A DNA stretch of 64,000 bases from Rosistilla ulvae (GTDB taxonomy: Bacteria; Planctomycetota; Planctomycetia; Pirellulales; Pirellulaceae), in NCBI RefSeq assembly GCF_007741475.1, contig NZ_CP036261.1, forward strand, positions 3,100,001-3,164,000, read 5' to 3'. Of the stretch, positions 18,926-27,303 are shown piece after piece. The translations under genes and the position numbers were made by a program. Under the pieces are notes generated by a model. That model did no database searches, was not told where the DNA came from, and saw nothing but the letters and a program-made list of their open reading frames with translations. Each line of letters starts with the position of its first letter. Within the stretch, counting starts at the first letter, position 1.

Positions 18926-19136
18926 TTTCTTTCGGCTCGCATTTGCGGGATATTTGCCACGACTGGTACCATTGAATCGACACGTATAGCCAGGAATTCC
19001 AGATCAATCCGAACGCGAAGAATAGACAACCCAAATAACCCACATTACGCGTCGCAGACACCTCAGCTTGTCCAGGTTGCCGCCTGCCCGCCGGTTATGA
19101 TTGCGATTGATATCAGCTAGCTCATGGAAAACGGTA

Positions 19137-21173
19137 ATGTCTACCAGCGAAACAGCCCCAAACGAAGCGAACGACTCCATCGAATCGGTCCCCGCGCCAG
19201 TTGCCCAAGATGCCCAGGCTCCGGAGTCGCGCGCCGATAAGGACGTGCCACTGAAAAGCTGGCTCGGGATGGGAGCGTCGACGCGAATCCGTCGTTGGCA
19301 GCGGAATCTGCAAAAGATCGCCGCCTGGGAACCGCTGTTGATCAAAGAGAACAACGAGGAGATCCGCAAGCGGAGTCTGGCGCTGCGGTACCGCGCCAAA
19401 TCGGGGGAATCGCTCGCGTCGTTGATGCCCGAAGCGTATGCCCTGGTCCGTGAAGCGGGTCGGCGCACGTTGGGGATGCGGCATTATCAGGTGCAGATGA
19501 TCGGCGGCATGGCGCTGCACGAAGGCTGTATCTCCGAGATGCAGACGGGAGAAGGGAAGACGTTGACGGCGACCCTGCCGCTCTATCTACATTCCTTGTT
19601 GGGCAAGGGCTCGCATCTGGCGACGGTTAACGATTATCTGGCCAAGCGCGATGCGGAGTGGATGACGCCGCTTTTTCGCACGTTGGGTGTCAGCGTGGGA
19701 ATCGTGCAAACCGAATGTGATCAAGGCCAGCGCCGCGAAGCGTACAACAGCGACATCACGTATGGCACGGCCAAAGAGTTCGGATTTGACTTCCTTCGCG
19801 ATCGCTTGCTGCTGCGGGCGCAAAACCGCGTCCAGTCCGACTTCCTGGGCGATGGCGAATCGAACTTCAGCGGTGGCGGTGGCGACAAACCGGTGATGCG
19901 TGGCGTCCATTTCTGTTTAGTCGATGAGGCCGACAGCATCTTGATCGATGAAGCGAGAACGCCGTTGATCATCGGTTCGATCGAGGATCAGGTGCGCGAA
20001 CAGATCGTGCAGACGTACCTTTGGGCGGCGCGGCACGCACCGGAATTTGTCGAGAACGAACACTTCGAAATCAATCCCGACACCAAACAAATTGAACTGA
20101 TCGGCCGCGGTCGCCAACAAGTCCGATCGCTGCCACGTCCCGACCTGATTCGAACCGTGGGGCTGGTCGATCTGTACGAGTTCATGGAGCGTGGCATCAA
20201 AGTCCATCAAGAGTTCTTTCTGGACCGGCACTACGTCGTCCGCGACGATGAGATCGTGATCGTCGACGAATTCACGGGCCGTTTGGCCGAGGGACGTAAA
20301 TGGCGCGACGGGATCCATCAAGCGATCGAGGCCAAGGAGGGGATGGAGATCTCGGTCCCGACCGGTCAGGCCGCGCGGATCACGATCCAAGATCTGTTCC
20401 TGCGTTACAAATATCTTGCCGGGATGACCGGTACCGCCGCCACGTCGGCACCGGAACTGAAGAAGATCTACCGCACACCGGTCGTACGTGTCCCAACCAA
20501 TCGCCCGCCGCAACGGATCCCGCTGAAGGATCTCGTCTTCGGCGACATGCACTCAAAGTTTGTGGCGATTGTCGACGAAGTGGTTGAGATGAACCGATTG
20601 GGACGCCCGGTGCTGATCGGTACCCGATCGATCGACAAATCGGAACTGTTGTCGCAAATGCTCGAGGACAAAGGGATCAAACACGAAGTCCTCAACGCCA
20701 ACAAAGTGGCCGAAGAGGCGGCGATCGTCGAAGAGGCGGGCAAGCGTGGCCGCGTCACGGTGGCGACCAACATGGCTGGCCGCGGTACCGATATCAAGGT
20801 TCCCAAAGATGTCGAAGCCGAGGGTGGGATCCACGTGATCTGCACCGAATTGCACGATTCGGCGCGGGTCGATCGTCAGTTGATCGGCCGCTGCGGTCGG
20901 CAGGGCGACCAGGGATCCTACCGCCAGTATCTGTCGCTGGACGACGATATCCTCAAGAACGGCTACGGCCCGGTCAAAGCCGCACGATGGAAACAGTTAG
21001 GCGCCGATAGCGGCTCCAGCTTTCAGAGCTATGCTGCGATGTTCCGCAAGGCTCAGCAGAAGGTCGAAAGGAAACACTTCCGCGACCGGATGGTGCTGTT
21101 GCATCACGAGCGCGAACGCAAAAAGATGCAGCGTGAATTAGGGCAAGACCCCTATCTCGACACGCCCGATTGA
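19137..21173 (+). CDS. Short SecA-like ATPase lacking the C-terminal domains
   Basis: 678 residues from ATG 19137 (MSTSETAPNE); a start at 19101 would add twelve residues. QTGEGKT (Walker A) at 136-142, LVDEADSILIDEARTPLI (DEAD box) near 262-279, the preprotein cross-linking region, VDEFTGRLAEGRKW, GMTGTA, TNMAGRGTDIKV and GRCGRQGDQG of the second motor domain are all intact. After the start of the long scaffold helix (FRKAQQKVERKHFRDRM) the protein ends, so the rest of the scaffold, the wing domain and the zinc/SecB tail found in ~900-residue SecA are missing. It should be a second, specialised SecA and not the housekeeping one. Substrates unknown. Confidence 0.88.
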   Translation: MSTSETAPNEANDSIESVPAPVAQDAQAPESRADKDVPLKSWLGMGASTRIRRWQRNLQKIAAWEPLLIKENNEEIRKRSLALRYRAKSGESLASLMPEAYALVREAGRRTLGMRHYQVQMIGGMALHEGCISEMQTGEGKTLTATLPLYLHSLLGKGSHLATVNDYLAKRDAEWMTPLFRTLGVSVGIVQTECDQGQRREAYNSDITYGTAKEFGFDFLRDRLLLRAQNRVQSDFLGDGESNFSGGGGDKPVMRGVHFCLVDEADSILIDEARTPLIIGSIEDQVREQIVQTYLWAARHAPEFVENEHFEINPDTKQIELIGRGRQQVRSLPRPDLIRTVGLVDLYEFMERGIKVHQEFFLDRHYVVRDDEIVIVDEFTGRLAEGRKWRDGIHQAIEAKEGMEISVPTGQAARITIQDLFLRYKYLAGMTGTAATSAPELKKIYRTPVVRVPTNRPPQRIPLKDLVFGDMHSKFVAIVDEVVEMNRLGRPVLIGTRSIDKSELLSQMLEDKGIKHEVLNANKVAEEAAIVEEAGKRGRVTVATNMAGRGTDIKVPKDVEAEGGIHVICTELHDSARVDRQLIGRCGRQGDQGSYRQYLSLDDDILKNGYGPVKAARWKQLGADSGSSFQSYAAMFRKAQQKVERKHFRDRMVLLHHERERKKMQRELGQDPYLDTPD

Positions 21174-21539: not shown

Positions 21540-22283
21540 ATGCGTACACTCAGCCTGCTTTGCCTGTTCGCCCTGACACTGCTTCCGCTCGCGGCAGCAC
21601 ACGCCGAAGAGGATGGTTTCATTTCCCTCTTCGATGGCAAGACCCTCGACAACTGGGACGGAAATCCCGTCTTTTGGAGCGTCGAAGATGGAATGATCAC
21701 CGGTCAAACGACCGCGGATAATCCAACCAAGGGAAACACGTTTCTGATCTATCGCGGCGGGGAAGTTGGCGATTTTGAACTGCAGCTGGAATACAAGCTG
21801 ATCGGTGGCAATTCGGGGATCCAGTACCGCAGTTTTGAAGTCGATCCCGAGAAGAAAAAGTGGGTCGTCGGCGGTTACCAAGGTGACTTCGAATCCGGCG
21901 ACACCTACTCGGGAATTTTGTACGGCGAAAAGTTCCGCGGCATCCTGGCCAATCGCGGCCAGAAAACCGAACTGGTCCGCAACGATGGCAAGTTCAAGGT
22001 GAACGTCGTCGGATCGGTGGGCGATTCGAAGACGATCCAGTCGAAGATCAAAAAGGAAGACTGGAACACCTACACGATCACCGCCAAGGGCTTTGAGTTC
22101 GCTCACAAGATCAACGGCGTTCCCACCGCCGAATGTACCGACAACGACACCAAGGAACGTCGCGCCAGCGGCATCCTGGCGTTGCAACTGCACGCCGGTC
22201 CGCCGATGAAGGTCCAGTTCCGCAACATTCGCTTGAAGCGACTGCCAGCAGCCACCGACGACGCAGCTAAAAAAAAAAGATAG
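21540..22283 (+). CDS. Secreted DUF1080 (3-keto-disaccharide hydrolase-like) protein, ends at an A10 tract
   Basis: 247 residues: signal peptide (MRTLSLLCLFALTLLPLAAAHA), then a DUF1080 / LamG-like fold (FISLFDGKTLDNWDGNP; FWSVEDGMITGQTT; FELQLEYKLIGGNSGIQYRS; ASGILALQLHAGPPMKVQFRNIRLK). DUF1080 proteins act on or bind carbohydrates; some cleave 3-keto-glucosides. The frame ends AAKKKR-TAG in ten A residues (22269-22278). The next gene starts in the -1 frame at the same tract and has no normal start codon, so the two look like one polypeptide split by a frameshift (see finding). In many planctomycetes these domains occur fused. Confidence 0.88.
   Translation: MRTLSLLCLFALTLLPLAAAHAEEDGFISLFDGKTLDNWDGNPVFWSVEDGMITGQTTADNPTKGNTFLIYRGGEVGDFELQLEYKLIGGNSGIQYRSFEVDPEKKKWVVGGYQGDFESGDTYSGILYGEKFRGILANRGQKTELVRNDGKFKVNVVGSVGDSKTIQSKIKKEDWNTYTITAKGFEFAHKINGVPTAECTDNDTKERRASGILALQLHAGPPMKVQFRNIRLKRLPAATDDAAKKKR
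22269..22279 (+). promoter_or_regulatory. A10-G slippery tract, possible -1 frameshift or transcriptional slippage site
   Basis: Ten A followed by G. In the DUF1080 frame it reads AAA AAA AAA AGA TAG. A -1 slip gives AAA AAG ATA GTC TTC, which is the first beta-strand of the ThuA domain. A AAA AAA / A AAA AAG are efficient slippery heptamers in bacteria, and A9-10 tracts also cause polymerase slippage. A sequencing error of one A is the alternative. Confidence 0.55.
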
Positions 22284-25200
22284 TCTTCATCGCGGGTAAG
22301 CCGAGCCACGGCTATGGTTCGCACGAACACTATGCCGGCTGTCGCTTGTTGGCCAACGCTTTGACCGAAGCGATGCCAGACTACACCGCCGAAGTGATCC
22401 AAAACGGCTGGCCCGAAGCGGGAACCGAAGCGCTTCAAGATGCCGACACGATCGTCGTCTATTGCGACGGTGGCGGTCGGCATCTGCTGAATCCTCACAT
22501 CGACGAACTGGCACCGCTGATGAAAGCCGGTGCCGGTTTGGTCTGTATCCACTACGGCGTGGAGACCTTGGCGGGCAAGCCAGGCGATGCTTTCTTGGAT
22601 TGGATCGGCGGTTATTTCGAAGCCAATTGGTCGGTCAATCCACACTGGGTTGCGAAATACGAAATCTTCCCCGACCATCCGATCAGCCGCGGCGTGCAGC
22701 CGTTTGAAATCAACGATGAGTGGTACTTCCACATGCGGTTTCGCGACGGCATGGATGGCGTAACGCCGATCCTCTCCGCACATCCCCCCGAAGACACGAT
22801 GCGTCGTCCCGATGGTCCGCACAGCGGCAACCCGGCGGTTCGCAAAGCTGTCGCCAACGGCGAGATTCAACACATGGCTTGGGCGGCCCAGCGCGATGGC
22901 GGCGGACGCGGTTTTGGCTTCACCGGCGGGCATTTCCACTGGAACTGGGCTGATCCCAATTTCCGCAAAGTGATGCTCAACGCCATCGTCTGGACCGCGC
23001 ACGGCGAGGTCCCGGCGGCGGGTGTTTCGACCGAGGATCCGACTCAAGAACAGCTGGAAGCCAATCAGGACGAGCCCAATCCGTCGATTGCCAAAAAGGA
23101 AAAGAAGGGGAAGAAGATCATGCGAACGGTCGTCGACCGCGAGGTGGCGACCAAGCCGAAGTCCGACGCAAAGCGTCTGTTCCTAAGTGATCCGGTGAAC
23201 AAGAAAACGCCGGGAATTTCGGTCGCGATCGATGTGCCGTTGGGAGATGCAAAGCAGCTCTTCTTGGCAGTCACCGACGGCGGCAACGGCTACAGTTGCG
23301 ATTGGGCCGATTGGGCGGAGCCGCGATTGGTGGGCCCCGCCGGGGAAATGAAATTGACCGATCTGAAGTGGAAGCACGCTTCGTCGGGCTTTGGCCAGGT
23401 TCGCGTCGGTAAAAACGCTGGCGGTGGACCGCTGCGAATCGATGGCAAAGCGGTTCCCTACGGAATCGGCACCCACGCGCCGTCGGTGATCGGATTTGAT
23501 CTGCCCGCCGGCTACGACCGGTTTGTCGCTCGCGGCGGTCTGGACAACGGCGGAACCGATCAGGGATCGTGCGGCGGCAGCGCCGAAGTCCGTTTTGCGG
23601 TCTACGACAAAATGCCGACGCTGGAAGTTTCCGGTGGCGGATCGCGGGAAGCGCGCGAAGCGTTAGATGGTTTGGATGTCGGAGGCGATTTGGCAGCCAG
23701 TGTATTTGCCGCCGAACCGCAACTGTTGAGCCCTTCGAATATCGATATCGATCACCGGGGCCGTGTTTGGGTTTGCGAAATCGTCAACTACCGCAAACAC
23801 AAAGGCAAGCGACCCGAAGGGGATCGGATCCTGATCCTGGAAGATACCGATGGCGACGGGATGGCCGACACCGAGAAGGTCTTCTATCAAGGGGACGACA
23901 TCGATTCGCCGCACGGCGTCTGCGTGTTGGGCAACAAAGCAATCGTCTCGGCCGGCGACAAGGTGTTCCTGCTCACCGATTCGGATGGCGACGACAAGGC
24001 GGATCAAAAAGAGGTGCTGTTCAGCGGCATCTCCGGGTCGCAACACGATCATGGAATCCACGCCTTCACCTTTGGCCCCGATGGCAAGCTCTACTTCAAC
24101 TTTGGCAACGCCGGTGGGCAGCTGAAGGATAAGGATGGTAAACCGATCGTCGACGCGGCGGGGAACGAAGTCGCGGCGCGACGCAAACCGTACCAGGAAG
24201 GAATGGTCTTCCGTTGCAATCTCGACGGCAGCGAGCTGGAAACCCTCGGCTGGAACTTCCGCAACAATTGGATGGTCACTGTCGATTCTTACGGCGGGAT
24301 CTGGCAATCGGACAACGACGACGATGGCAACAAAGCGGTCCGCATCAATTATGTGATGGAGTACGGCAACTATGGCTACAAAGACGAAAAGACCGGTGCG
24401 GGTTGGAAAGCCGACCGAACCGGGATGCACACCGACGTGCCGCTTCGCCACTGGCATCTGAACGATCCGGGCGTCGTCCCCAACCTGCTTCAAACGGGAG
24501 CCGGTTCGCCGACGGGGATCACCGTTTACGAAGGGGATCTGTTGCCGATGTTCACCGGACATCTGCTGCACTGCGATGCCGGCCCCAACGTTTGCCGAGC
24601 TTATATCGTCAGCGACGACAAAGCTGGCTACACGGCGAAGATTCGCGAGATCTTGACCGGATCGCAGGACAAGTGGTTCCGCCCCTCCGACGTGAAAGTC
24701 GCTCCCGACGGGTCGCTTGTCATCGCCGACTGGTACGATCCAGGCGTCGGCGGACACGGCATGGGCGATCTCGATCGCGGGCGTTTGTTCCGCATCACTC
24801 CGATCAAACACGATGCGTCTTATAAGGTTCCGACGTTCGATTTCGATACGGCGCCGGGAGCTGTCGAAGCTTTAAAGAACCCCAACTACGCGGTCCGCTA
24901 CATGGCGTGGCAGTCGCTGCACGCGATGGGAACCGACGCGAACAGCGAGCTGCAAAAGTTGGCAGCTTCGAAAAATCCGATCTATCGCGCTCGCGCCCTC
25001 TGGTTGTTGGGCAAGACCGACGGTCAAGGGAAGCAGACGGTTGCCCAAGCGATCGAAGATTCCGATCCCAACGTTCGCATGATGGGCGTTCGCTTGGCCC
25101 GCCAATTGGATCTGGAGCTCGAAGATTTTGTCGCTCCTCTGCTACGCGATCCCTCGCCACAGGTCCGCCGCGAATTGGCAGTCGCGCTGCGGGAGAGCAA

Positions 25201-25531
25201 CTCGGAAAAGGTGCCTTCGATGTGGGCCGAATTGGCGACTCAACACGATGGCAAGGACCGCTGGTACCTGGAAGCATTGGGAGTCGGTTCGGATCTGCAA
25301 GCCGATGCCTGTTTCGACGCGTGGATCAAGGCGGTTGGCGACGATTGGAACACGCCCGCCGGACGCGACATCATCTGGCGTTCGCGAGCTCCCGCGGCAA
25401 CCGCTTATCTGGTCAAGATCTTGCAAGATCCAGAGCTCAGCGAAGCCGATCAAGCCCGCTACATGCGCGCCTTCGACTTCCACGAGGGACCAGAAAAAGA
25501 AGCGGCTCTGTTGAAGCTGCTAGGACTGTAA
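22271..25531 (+). CDS. ThuA-like / NPCBM-like / PVC membrane-bound dehydrogenase-type protein without own start
   Basis: The frame is open from 22271 (after an in-frame TAA at 22268) for 1,086 codons. It begins KKKIVFIAGKPSHGYGSHEH, the first strand and catalytic-loop start of a ThuA (trehalose-utilisation, glutamine-amidotransferase-like) domain (to about residue 245). The first ATG/GTG/TTG-type codon is TTG 22346, which would delete that strand. Then follow a basic linker, an NPCBM-like jelly roll (~290-450), the PVC dehydrogenase six-blade propeller (LLSPSNIDIDHRGRVWVCEI; DTDGDGMADTEKVF) and HEAT repeats ending ALLKLLGL. No haem CxxCH motif is present; that domain is in the next gene. Expected to be exported through fusion to the DUF1080 signal peptide. 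Confidence 0.75.
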   Translation, partial: KKKIVFIAGKPSHGYGSHEHYAGCRLLANALTEAMPDYTAEVIQNGWPEAGTEALQDADTIVVYCDGGGRHLLNPHIDELAPLMKAGAGLVCIHYGVETLAGKPGDAFLDWIGGYFEANWSVNPHWVAKYEIFPDHPISRGVQPFEINDEWYFHMRFRDGMDGVTPILSAHPPEDTMRRPDGPHSGNPAVRKAVANGEIQHMAWAAQRDGGGRGFGFTGGHFHWNWADPNFRKVMLNAIVWTAHGEVPAAGVSTEDPTQEQLEANQDEPNPSIAKKEKKGKKIMRTVVDREVATKPKSDAKRLFLSDPVNKKTPGISVAIDVPLGDAKQLFLAVTDGGNGYSCDWADWAEPRLVGPAGEMKLTDLKWKHASSGFGQVRVGKNAGGGPLRIDGKAVPYGIGTHAPSVIGFDLPAGYDRFVARGGLDNGGTDQGSCGGSAEVRFAVYDKMPTLEVSGGGSREAREALDGLDVGGDLAASVFAAEPQLLSPSNIDIDHRGRVWVCEIVNYRKHKGKRPEGDRILILEDTDGDGMADTEKVFYQGDDIDSPHGVCVLGNKAIVSAGDKVFLLTDSDGDDKADQKEVLFSGISGSQHDHGIHAFTFGPDGKLYFNFGNAGGQLKDKDGKPIVDAAGNEVAARRKPYQEGMVFRCNLDGSELETLGWNFRNNWMVTVDSYGGIWQSDNDDDGNKAVRINYVMEYGNYGYKDEKTGAGWKADRTGMHTDVPLRHWHLNDPGVVPNLLQTGAGSPTGITVYEGDLLPMFTGHLLHCDAGPNVCRAYIVSDDKAGYTAKIREILTGSQDKWFRPSDVKVAPDGSLVIADWYDPGVGGHGMGDLDRGRLFRITPIKHDASYKVPTFDFDTAPGAVEALKNPNYAVRYMAWQSLHAMGTDANSELQKLAASKNPIYRARALWLLGKTDGQGKQTVAQAIEDSDPNVRMMGVRLARQLDLELEDFVAPLLRDPSPQVRRELAVALRESNSEKVPSMWAELATQHDGKDRWYLEALGVGSDLQADACFDAWIKAVGDDWNTPAGRDIIWRSRAPAATAYLVKILQDPELSEADQARYMRAFDFHEGPEKEAALLKLLGL

Positions 25532-25746: not shown

Positions 25747-26187
25747 TCTACGCGGCCGCCGCTCCCGCGGCTTCGTTTTGGGAAGTCGCGCGTGCTACTC
25801 GGCGACGGAGCGATTCCGATCGACAACGACGATACCAAGCGCGAGCTGCGCAGCTTCACGATTGGCACGTTTGAAGCAACAGATCATCCTTCGATATCGG
25901 GACCCTGGCATCCCTCAAACCATGTTCAATTGGACTAGCGACACAGACTTGCGGGCAAACAACAAAAAGCAAGGCTCAACAGACATTAAGATCTTTCGTT
26001 GTGTCGGCTGCCGCTTTGGGATGAACGATTCCAGTTGTTCGTTTATCGTGCGACGCATTTGTTGTACACTTGCATCCGTAAACTTCCTAAACCGCCAACA
26101 TTCTTATCGCGCATCGGATTTATTGTCGCGTTAGCGCCGTTGCCGGCTCCGACCCCTTGTTTTCCCGCGTTCCCACACGGTCTGTTT

Positions 26188-27303
26188 ATGTTTCGTATTC
26201 CGCTGTCGATCGTCGTTTGTTTCGCTATCGGGGCGATTGCGTTTGGGCAAGAGGGAAATTCACTCAGCCCCCGCGACAAATTGATTGTTGAAACGGTGCT
26301 GCGTATCAAAGACTTTAAGATCGAATCCTCCGCACCGGCCAAAGCAGCGCTGCTTCGCTATTTGCGATCCCAACCGGGGACGGAGCAATATTTTGAACTG
26401 ATCGAACGCTTCGGGTTAACCGACGTCGCGGGTGAGCTGACCGAGTTTGCGATCGCTCACGCCGACGAAACCGCTGGCGTGCGGGCGGCGGAACTGCTGT
26501 TCAAGCTGGACCGTCAGAAGCTGTTGATCGATGCGATCTCGGCGGAAGCGAGTGAGCACGCGGTCGCTGCGGTCGCGTTGATTGGTCGCGTTGGAGGAAC
26601 CAAGACGCAGGAAATTCTGATGCCCCTGATCGCGGCGTCGGACAAGTCGGCCGAGCTGCGCGCCGCGGCGGTCGCCGGAATCGCGCGTCGCAGCGATGGC
26701 CAGCGGGCGTTGCTGAAGATCGTTGCCGATGGCAAACTGCCGGCCGACCTGAACTTCGCCGCTGCCAACGCGTTGCTCTCCTCGGACGACAAAACGATTG
26801 TCGCTGAGGCGGCCAAATACCTTCAGTTGCCGGCGACGGCTGACAGCCAACCGCTGCCACCGATTTCGGAACTGATCCAAAAGCGTGGCGATCCCGTGGC
26901 CGGAGCGATCGTGTTTCGCAAATCGGGAACCTGTATCAACTGTCATAAGGTCAAGGGCGAGGGGAAAGAGGTTGGCCCCGATTTGTCGGAGATCGGCAGC
27001 AAGCTGTCGCGCGAAGCGATGTATGTCGCTGTCTTAAACCCCAGCGCGGCGGTCAGCCACAATTTTGAGACCTATTCGCTGCTGACGATCGACGGCGATG
27101 CGACGACGGGGCTGTTGGTCAGCGAAACCGATGCCGCGGTGACGCTGCGAAACGCCGAAGGGATCGACAAGACGGTGGCTCGCGATGATATCGAGCTGTT
27201 CCAAAAGCAAGCAAAGTCGCTGATGCCTCAGGATTTGCAGCGATTGATGACGGTTCCCCAATTGATCGACCTGATCGAATACACGCTGACGCTGACCAAA
27301 TAG
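26188..27303 (+). CDS. Secreted HEAT-repeat protein with PVC-type haem-binding domain
   Basis: 371 residues with a signal peptide (MFRIPLSIVVCFAIGAIAFG). HEAT-like helices run over ~40-225. The PVC-type c-type haem domain follows: GDPVAGAIVFRKSGTCINCHKV carries the CxxCH motif (about residues 238-259, CINCH), and VGPDLSEIGSKLSREAMYVAVLNPSAAVSHNFETY the downstream conserved part. In typical PVC dehydrogenases this HEAT-haem part is the C-terminus of the propeller protein; here it is a separate gene 656 bases after it. Likely electron acceptor for the propeller dehydrogenase at 22271-25531 (inference). A longer in-frame start at 25999 lacks a signal peptide. Confidence 0.88.
   Translation: MFRIPLSIVVCFAIGAIAFGQEGNSLSPRDKLIVETVLRIKDFKIESSAPAKAALLRYLRSQPGTEQYFELIERFGLTDVAGELTEFAIAHADETAGVRAAELLFKLDRQKLLIDAISAEASEHAVAAVALIGRVGGTKTQEILMPLIAASDKSAELRAAAVAGIARRSDGQRALLKIVADGKLPADLNFAAANALLSSDDKTIVAEAAKYLQLPATADSQPLPPISELIQKRGDPVAGAIVFRKSGTCINCHKVKGEGKEVGPDLSEIGSKLSREAMYVAVLNPSAAVSHNFETYSLLTIDGDATTGLLVSETDAAVTLRNAEGIDKTVARDDIELFQKQAKSLMPQDLQRLMTVPQLIDLIEYTLTLTK

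Follow-up and report, generated by a model that had tools for sequence, protein, structure and literature searches.

A probable polymerase slippage site at an A10 run between the DUF1080 and ThuA frames of a planctomycete gene

We describe here a frame break in a gene of Rosistilla ulvae for a secreted, probably sugar-catabolic enzyme. It lies in a stretch of 64,000 nucleotides (G000:C1:3100001-3164000, from a single contig of 7,475,804 bases), which we call the window and whose positions are used below unless otherwise indicated. Two open reading frames (ORFs), one coding for a DUF1080 protein and the other for a ThuA-containing dehydrogenase, meet at a run of exactly ten A (A10). The features of this locus are the following:

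21540..22283, + strand: ORF1, a secreted DUF1080 / 3-keto-disaccharide hydrolase-family protein of 247 aa (PF06439, E=2.1e-38).
22268..22270, + strand: TAA closing the ThuA frame just upstream and confining the shift, as read from the sequence.
22269..22278, + strand: the A10 run, a candidate slippery tract, followed by G at 22279, without gaps against two congeners and recurrent in relatives.
22280..22283, + strand: ATAG, a rare ATA Ile codon in the ThuA frame whose overlap forms the TAG of the DUF1080 frame (compared across loci below).
22271..25531, + strand: ORF2, with ThuA, NPCBM, PVC-type dehydrogenase (DUF7133/Piru_Ver_Nterm) and HEAT regions, in the -1 frame, according to domain matches.

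ORF1 starts with the ATG at 21540, and its N-terminus, MRTLSLLCLFALTLLPLAAAHA, resembles a signal peptide as judged by eye. Its 3' end reads GAC GCA GCT AAA AAA AAA AGA TAG, with the TAG at 22281-22283. ORF2 reads KKKIVFIAGKPSHGYGSHEH... from position 22271 and continues for 1,086 codons up to the TAA at 25529-25531; it has no signal peptide of its own. The PF06439 match falls in the short ORF, and the ThuA, NPCBM, DUF7133/Piru_Ver_Nterm and HEAT matches in the long one. A preliminary description of this DNA had proposed this arrangement, with the DUF1080 frame ending in the run, the ThuA frame continuing at -1 and a TAA closing it at 22268, and the letters agree on each point. Given this TAA upstream and the TAG at 22281 downstream, a single shift is confined to 22271-22280, within the run or the next two bases. 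Arithmetic gives a product of 1,330 residues if one A is added or if the ribosome shifts by -1.

The ThuA frame lacks a usual start codon ahead of its conserved residues. Its earliest ATG, GTG or TTG is the TTG at 22346, which corresponds to residue 26. Residues G9, S12, H13, G14, Y15, H18, E19, H20 and G23, all of them upstream of this codon, are invariant in 9/9 aligned sequences; the alignment thus bears out the earlier statement that no usual start precedes the conserved part of ThuA. The presence of A10 at this place goes beyond chance: there are only seven A10 runs in the whole 7.48-Mb genome, and the run recurs at the same linker in relatives.

In G001 and G002, the remaining two genomes of the genus (96% and 91% identical), the gene is in one frame, and the run is still exactly A10: the junction reads GAA AAA AAA AAG ATA G. 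The alignment of this junction in relatives, suggested in the preliminary description, shows that the linker in the window is a net 19 bases shorter, that the loss lies outside the run and that the run itself is ungapped. Between the window and its congeners the frame has moved while the run has stayed. A10 at the DUF1080|ThuA linker is kept in 3/3 genomes of the genus; across genera it is recurrent, not unbroken. The ratio of nonsynonymous to synonymous substitution rates (dN/dS) downstream of the break is 0.089 between the window genome and G001 and 0.109 between it and G002, compared with 0.112 between the two in-frame congeners. The sequence behind the break is under purifying selection, without the relaxed constraint that marks a pseudogene. 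Lysine codons are unchanged in 134 of the 164 Lys columns shared within the genus, a divergence too small to be informative.

In order to survey this junction, a family census collected 146 loci from 146 of the at least 211 genomes with a match. Stieleria tagensis belongs to this family, as locus L041 of G243 is identical to the record L293 of that species, and the family is therefore Pirellulaceae. Of these loci, 62 are fused in frame, 6 are frame-shifted, 77 have no DUF1080 upstream by our cut-off (some of them cut by contig ends) and one (G008) is cut by the end of its contig. Adding 80 named loci gave 117 DUF1080-bearing rows: 103 in frame, 13 frame-shifted and one with a stop in the same frame. 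The longest A run in the in-frame rows is A10 in 6 cases, A9 in 3, A8 in 1, A7 in 8 and shorter in 85. Eleven of the frame-shifted rows (9 distinct; L302 = L068 and L306 = L066 were merged as duplicates between collections) have A10 at the break.

Three rows were dropped before the comparison of stop codons given below. The break in L069 lies inside DUF1080 and has no A run; in L352 ThuA begins with a signal-like sequence, and DUF1080 and ThuA are apparently separate genes; in L356 the stop is in the same frame.

A degenerate pattern search through 396 genomes of the order, with most of the matches listed at two mismatches, added two further A10 breaks, G007 and G513, the latter from another family of the order. 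This gives 11 sequence-distinct DUF1080|ThuA breaks from ten assemblies. All of them have exactly A10, and all are -1. Three of them (G007, L307 and L309) share 93-98% identity across about 1 kb, so the number of lineages with a break is about nine. A ThuA tree of 99 rows requires 9 changes to account for the broken state, of which at least 6 are forced by well-supported branches, and therefore it has arisen or been lost repeatedly. In two of the breaks the distance from the run to the ThuA core downstream is 27 and 201 nt, which means that the run, and not one ThuA motif, is what the breaks have in common.

The run is accompanied by a characteristic pattern of stop codons. In 11 of the 12 distinct loci with A10 adjacent to ThuA, the ThuA frame has ATA or GTA as its first codon behind the run, and then a G (RTAG), which forms a TAG in the shifted frame, compared with 3/79 in fusions without an A9 or A10 run (Fisher 9e-11). 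Both other frames are closed within 11 codons in 12/12 of these loci and in 1/79 of the fusions without such a run (Fisher 4e-14; 1/94 before merging duplicates). The 12 loci include three in-frame genes, G001, G002 and G096. These also carry the stop, and therefore the short product looks selected: in an in-frame gene we see no reason for such a codon other than ending a slipped product. In the window, ATA is used for only 1 of the 45 Ile codons of the ThuA-PVC frame, namely the one after the run. A local A+T bias does not explain this choice, because ATT or GTT is found at this position in 0/12 A10-adjacent loci and in 20/79 of the others.

We have read 17 A10 tracts, 11 broken and 6 in frame, five of them distant from ThuA. 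All 17 close both other frames within 3-11 codons; for comparison, random upstream codons of fusions without a run close both frames within 9 codons in 140/1,854 cases. In 241 genomes of the family the pattern A10-N{0,1}-RTAG occurs 17 times, against 5 for a reversed-pattern control. Nine of the matches are DUF1080|ThuA linkers, 2 are ThuA|PVC linkers, 2 are dnaX (by eye), 1 is an in-frame gene in G206 and 3 have no evident gene, two of these three lying in longer runs. The G206 match (L387, G206:C54:11741) is an in-frame A10-GTAG in the interior of a long ORF (315 + 400 open codons), and the two other frames have stops nearby.

A second linker of the same proteins behaves in a similar way. 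Among 189 distinct loci scanned between ThuA and PVC, 126 are in frame, 14 show frame differences and 49 have no PVC match. Ten of the frame differences have A9 or A10; the other four (L041, L343, L366 and L369), without a run and at 253-778 nt, are taken for separate genes. A run of A9-A11 is found in 19 ThuA|PVC loci, 9 of them in frame (including one A11, L118) and 10 broken (L042, L044, L045, L053, L057, L062, L063, L099, L103 and L123). Eight of the breaks are at A10 and two at A9; eight are -1 and two are +1. In genus g18 the run of the four genomes is, in turn, an in-frame A10, an in-frame A9, an A10 at a -1 break and an A10 at a +1 break. The run is kept while the frame moves both ways, which fits slippage by the polymerase, where all frames are filled, better than a -1 shift by the ribosome.

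Taken together, these features make it quite probable that the A10 run serves for programmed slippage of RNA polymerase, with two products, a fusion of 1,330 residues and a secreted DUF1080 protein that is much shorter. The locus has what is expected of transcriptional slippage: a run of at least nine A at the junction, near stops in the other frames, and a run and a downstream coding sequence that are both conserved. RNA polymerase would slip on the A10 in the DUF1080-ThuA linker and produce mRNAs with differing numbers of A. Those with the templated ten A would give the secreted DUF1080 protein of 247 residues, ending at the TAG which overlaps the ATA codon. Those with one extra A, or an equivalent change, would give the secreted DUF1080-ThuA-NPCBM-PVC fusion. 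Judging from their lengths, the two forms would weigh about 27 and 145 kDa. In the congeners with the run in frame, slippage would yield the short form instead. From the arrangement of run, stops and frames we infer slippage itself, its level, the polymerase rather than the ribosome as its agent, and a use for the two products. Perhaps the short one acts as a diffusible hydrolase beside a complex which oxidises and processes the same sugars.

Similar systems have been described. In dnaX of Thermus thermophilus the polymerase slips at A9 (PMC1088944, PMC5009743). It shares with the window A9 or A10 in an interdomain region and near stops in both other frames, and it gives a short and a long product, as proposed for the window. 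However, the Thermus gene is one ORF, while in the window the long product would need a slip and the gene codes for a secreted catabolic enzyme. There are also dnaX genes made of two ORFs, with a -1 break; 17 have been described, nine of them with A10, and slippage has been proposed (PMC3711429). These cases share with the window the A10 and the -1 break at the DNA level, but they concern a replication gene, and the main text of that article does not deal with DUF1080 or ThuA. In tssM1 of Citrobacter rodentium an A11 precedes a premature stop; in about 20% an added A restores the frame, the short and the long form are both required, and a second case is mentioned from Yersinia (PMC4256274). 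Poly-A slippage with an added A restoring the frame is what we propose for the window, but tssM1 is a secretion-system gene, and the type found in the window recurs across genera at two linkers.

Several observations weigh against polymerase slippage. All 11 DUF1080|ThuA breaks go in the -1 direction, the same as a ribosomal -1 shift would yield. Eight further loci, three with an A9 run and the others with an A10 distant from ThuA, were kept apart from the comparison of 12 with 79 loci; they have RTAG next to ThuA in 0/8 cases and both frames closed there in 1/8, while those with a distant A10 have their stops near the run instead. The Fisher values ignore kinship, and the 12 loci come from about 8 genera, so these values have a lower weight. 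The broken state is weakly clustered on the tree (34/500 shuffles as low), and the broken loci outside the window come from draft or metagenome assemblies. Finally, codon resampling in 62 genomes predicts 1.93 in-frame A10, and 5 are seen, an excess which is not clearly above the prediction from codon use and which we do not use as evidence of selection. The same resampling predicts 1.53 in-frame A9 and 0.30 in-frame A11, and none of either is seen.

The best of the other explanations is that the ribosome makes a programmed -1 shift at an A_AAA_AAA or A_AAA_AAG in the run, with the stop close behind. The preliminary description had pointed out these heptamers, and they do lie in the run in the zero frame, in each register. 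A zero-frame heptamer is present at all 11 breaks, and the nearby stop would also suit a ribosomal shift. In Escherichia coli dnaX, ribosomal frameshifting is stimulated by an upstream Shine-Dalgarno sequence and a downstream hairpin. That gene provides a precedent for a -1 shift (PMC3711429) and resembles the window in its A-rich heptamer and its two products, which in the window are inferred. Unlike in E. coli, a search for Shine-Dalgarno-like motifs and for folds in the 70 nt downstream did not find such stimulators in the window, so the suggested Shine-Dalgarno-like site or stem-loop around the tract was not borne out. Among the 11 breaks, a Shine-Dalgarno-like motif is found only in G513, and none has a 70-nt downstream fold with z < -2 (z from -1.64 to 1.06; pseudoknots were not examined). 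As for the 6 in-frame loci, L367 has a fold with z -3.38, and Shine-Dalgarno-like motifs occur in G060 and G061. Other facts also weigh against a ribosomal shift. A heptamer would not need exactly ten A. Not one break at a run of A8 or less is seen among the 94 in-frame fusions that have such runs, and the sister linker ThuA|PVC also has +1 breaks. The run may start at codon position 1, 2 or 3, so that its length, and not a codon-phased heptamer, is the common feature. We consider this mechanism unlikely, and less likely than polymerase slippage.

The preliminary description had hesitated between programmed slippage and a sequencing error. The relatives back the first, with A10 kept, a stop in the shifted frame and low dN/dS. 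According to the second, the true run would be A11 (or A8) and the gene would be in one frame. A10 is a homopolymer, and one more A would mend every DUF1080|ThuA break. A search of this genome gave no exact A11, and in 12 genomes chosen for carrying A10 at this linker there are 39 A10 (12 of them at the DUF1080|ThuA linker) and 3 A11. However, the same miscall would be needed at eleven loci from ten assemblies, and eleven miscalled A11 are not expected, because codon use predicts so few in-frame A11. Where an in-frame A11 does occur, at the ThuA|PVC linker of L118, it has been read as such. The RTAG codons are substitutions, which do not depend on the calling of run length, and they are also present in in-frame A10 loci. 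Moreover, the change of frame in the window maps to the linker and not to the run. An error is thus very improbable, and even with a count off by one here the run would be the slippery site seen in the congeners.

It is still less probable that this is a decaying or phase-variable gene, in which replication slippage in the run toggles the fusion on and off. An A10 run is hypermutable in principle, and the frame differs among congeners, but the length of the run is 10 at all 11 breaks, the downstream frame is intact and under purifying selection, and the run is accompanied by stops in the other frames. The least probable explanation is that ThuA-PVC is translated on its own, by coupled reinitiation at the ATA or GTA beside the stop: the stop and the ThuA frame do overlap by a few bases, but the codon there is ATA, GTA or ATC, none of them a usual start, the run of two breaks lies 27 and 201 nt from the ThuA core, as noted above, and the product would have no signal peptide, whereas unfused relatives seem by eye to have one.

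As for the neighbouring genes, a SecA-like ORF (by eye) lies upstream of the DUF1080 gene (19101-21173, + strand). A separate ORF downstream (25999-27303, + strand) has a CINCH heme motif and HEAT-like repeats; by eye it resembles the C-terminal part of PVC-type dehydrogenases, here as a gene of its own.

Similar runs are found in other genes of these bacteria. Four A10 runs are kept in 3/3 genomes of the genus: those in the DUF1080|ThuA linker, in dnaX, in an aminotransferase-thioesterase-like gene and in a polyketide-synthase-like gene. The dnaX gene is a textbook case of slippage. An in-frame A9 or A10 behind its conserved core is present in 26 of the 30 genomes read (15 A10, 11 A9, 4 none; 30 loci from 40 genomes searched, including the window genome and its two congeners). 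The A10 of dnaX in the window genome (G000:C1:3173512-3173521, L202) is in frame, in the gamma/tau position, 9.5 kb past the end of the window.

The run in the polyketide-synthase-like gene (G000:C1:7173455-7173464, L205; L239 and L241 in the congeners) is at a -1 break, where an ACP-containing ORF ending in KKKVTS or KKKVKS leads to a KR-containing ORF, the domains being assigned by eye. Distant homologues in 5 other genomes of 241 have open frames of 1,061-2,649 codons. An in-frame A10 lies between aminotransferase-like and thioesterase-like domains (G000:C1:1877153-1877162, L201; also L236, L240 and L247), with a similar place in G113 as judged by eye.

Our searches of a collection of papers for slippage or programmed frameshifting in planctomycetes, and for planctomycetes with DUF1080 and ThuA, found no report of such a case; a search for PVC-type heme-binding proteins with ThuA gave only unrelated papers. 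Planctomycetes are named in a genome-count table of PMC3711429. The mechanism is known, and the gene family would be new to it.

In summary, a slippage cassette, consisting of A10 and a chosen stop in the shifted frame, appears to have been gained repeatedly in secreted sugar-catabolic enzymes, with the run and the stops kept, but not the frame. A wider reading, which we put forward tentatively, is that planctomycetes may use A9/A10 linkers as a general device, with a ladder of products (DUF1080, DUF1080-ThuA and the full DUF1080-ThuA-PVC) arising repeatedly at the same two linkers, and also in dnaX, polyketide-synthase-like and aminotransferase-like genes. The DNA frame would then be almost free to drift, with the run and the stops being kept, because slippage would fill all three frames. 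Gene callers would split such genes or flag them as errors, and the rare ATA or GTA codon after the run is a testable signature at the level of the code for finding more cases. In any case, the finding opens the question of why the cell would need a free DUF1080 protein in addition to the full fusion.

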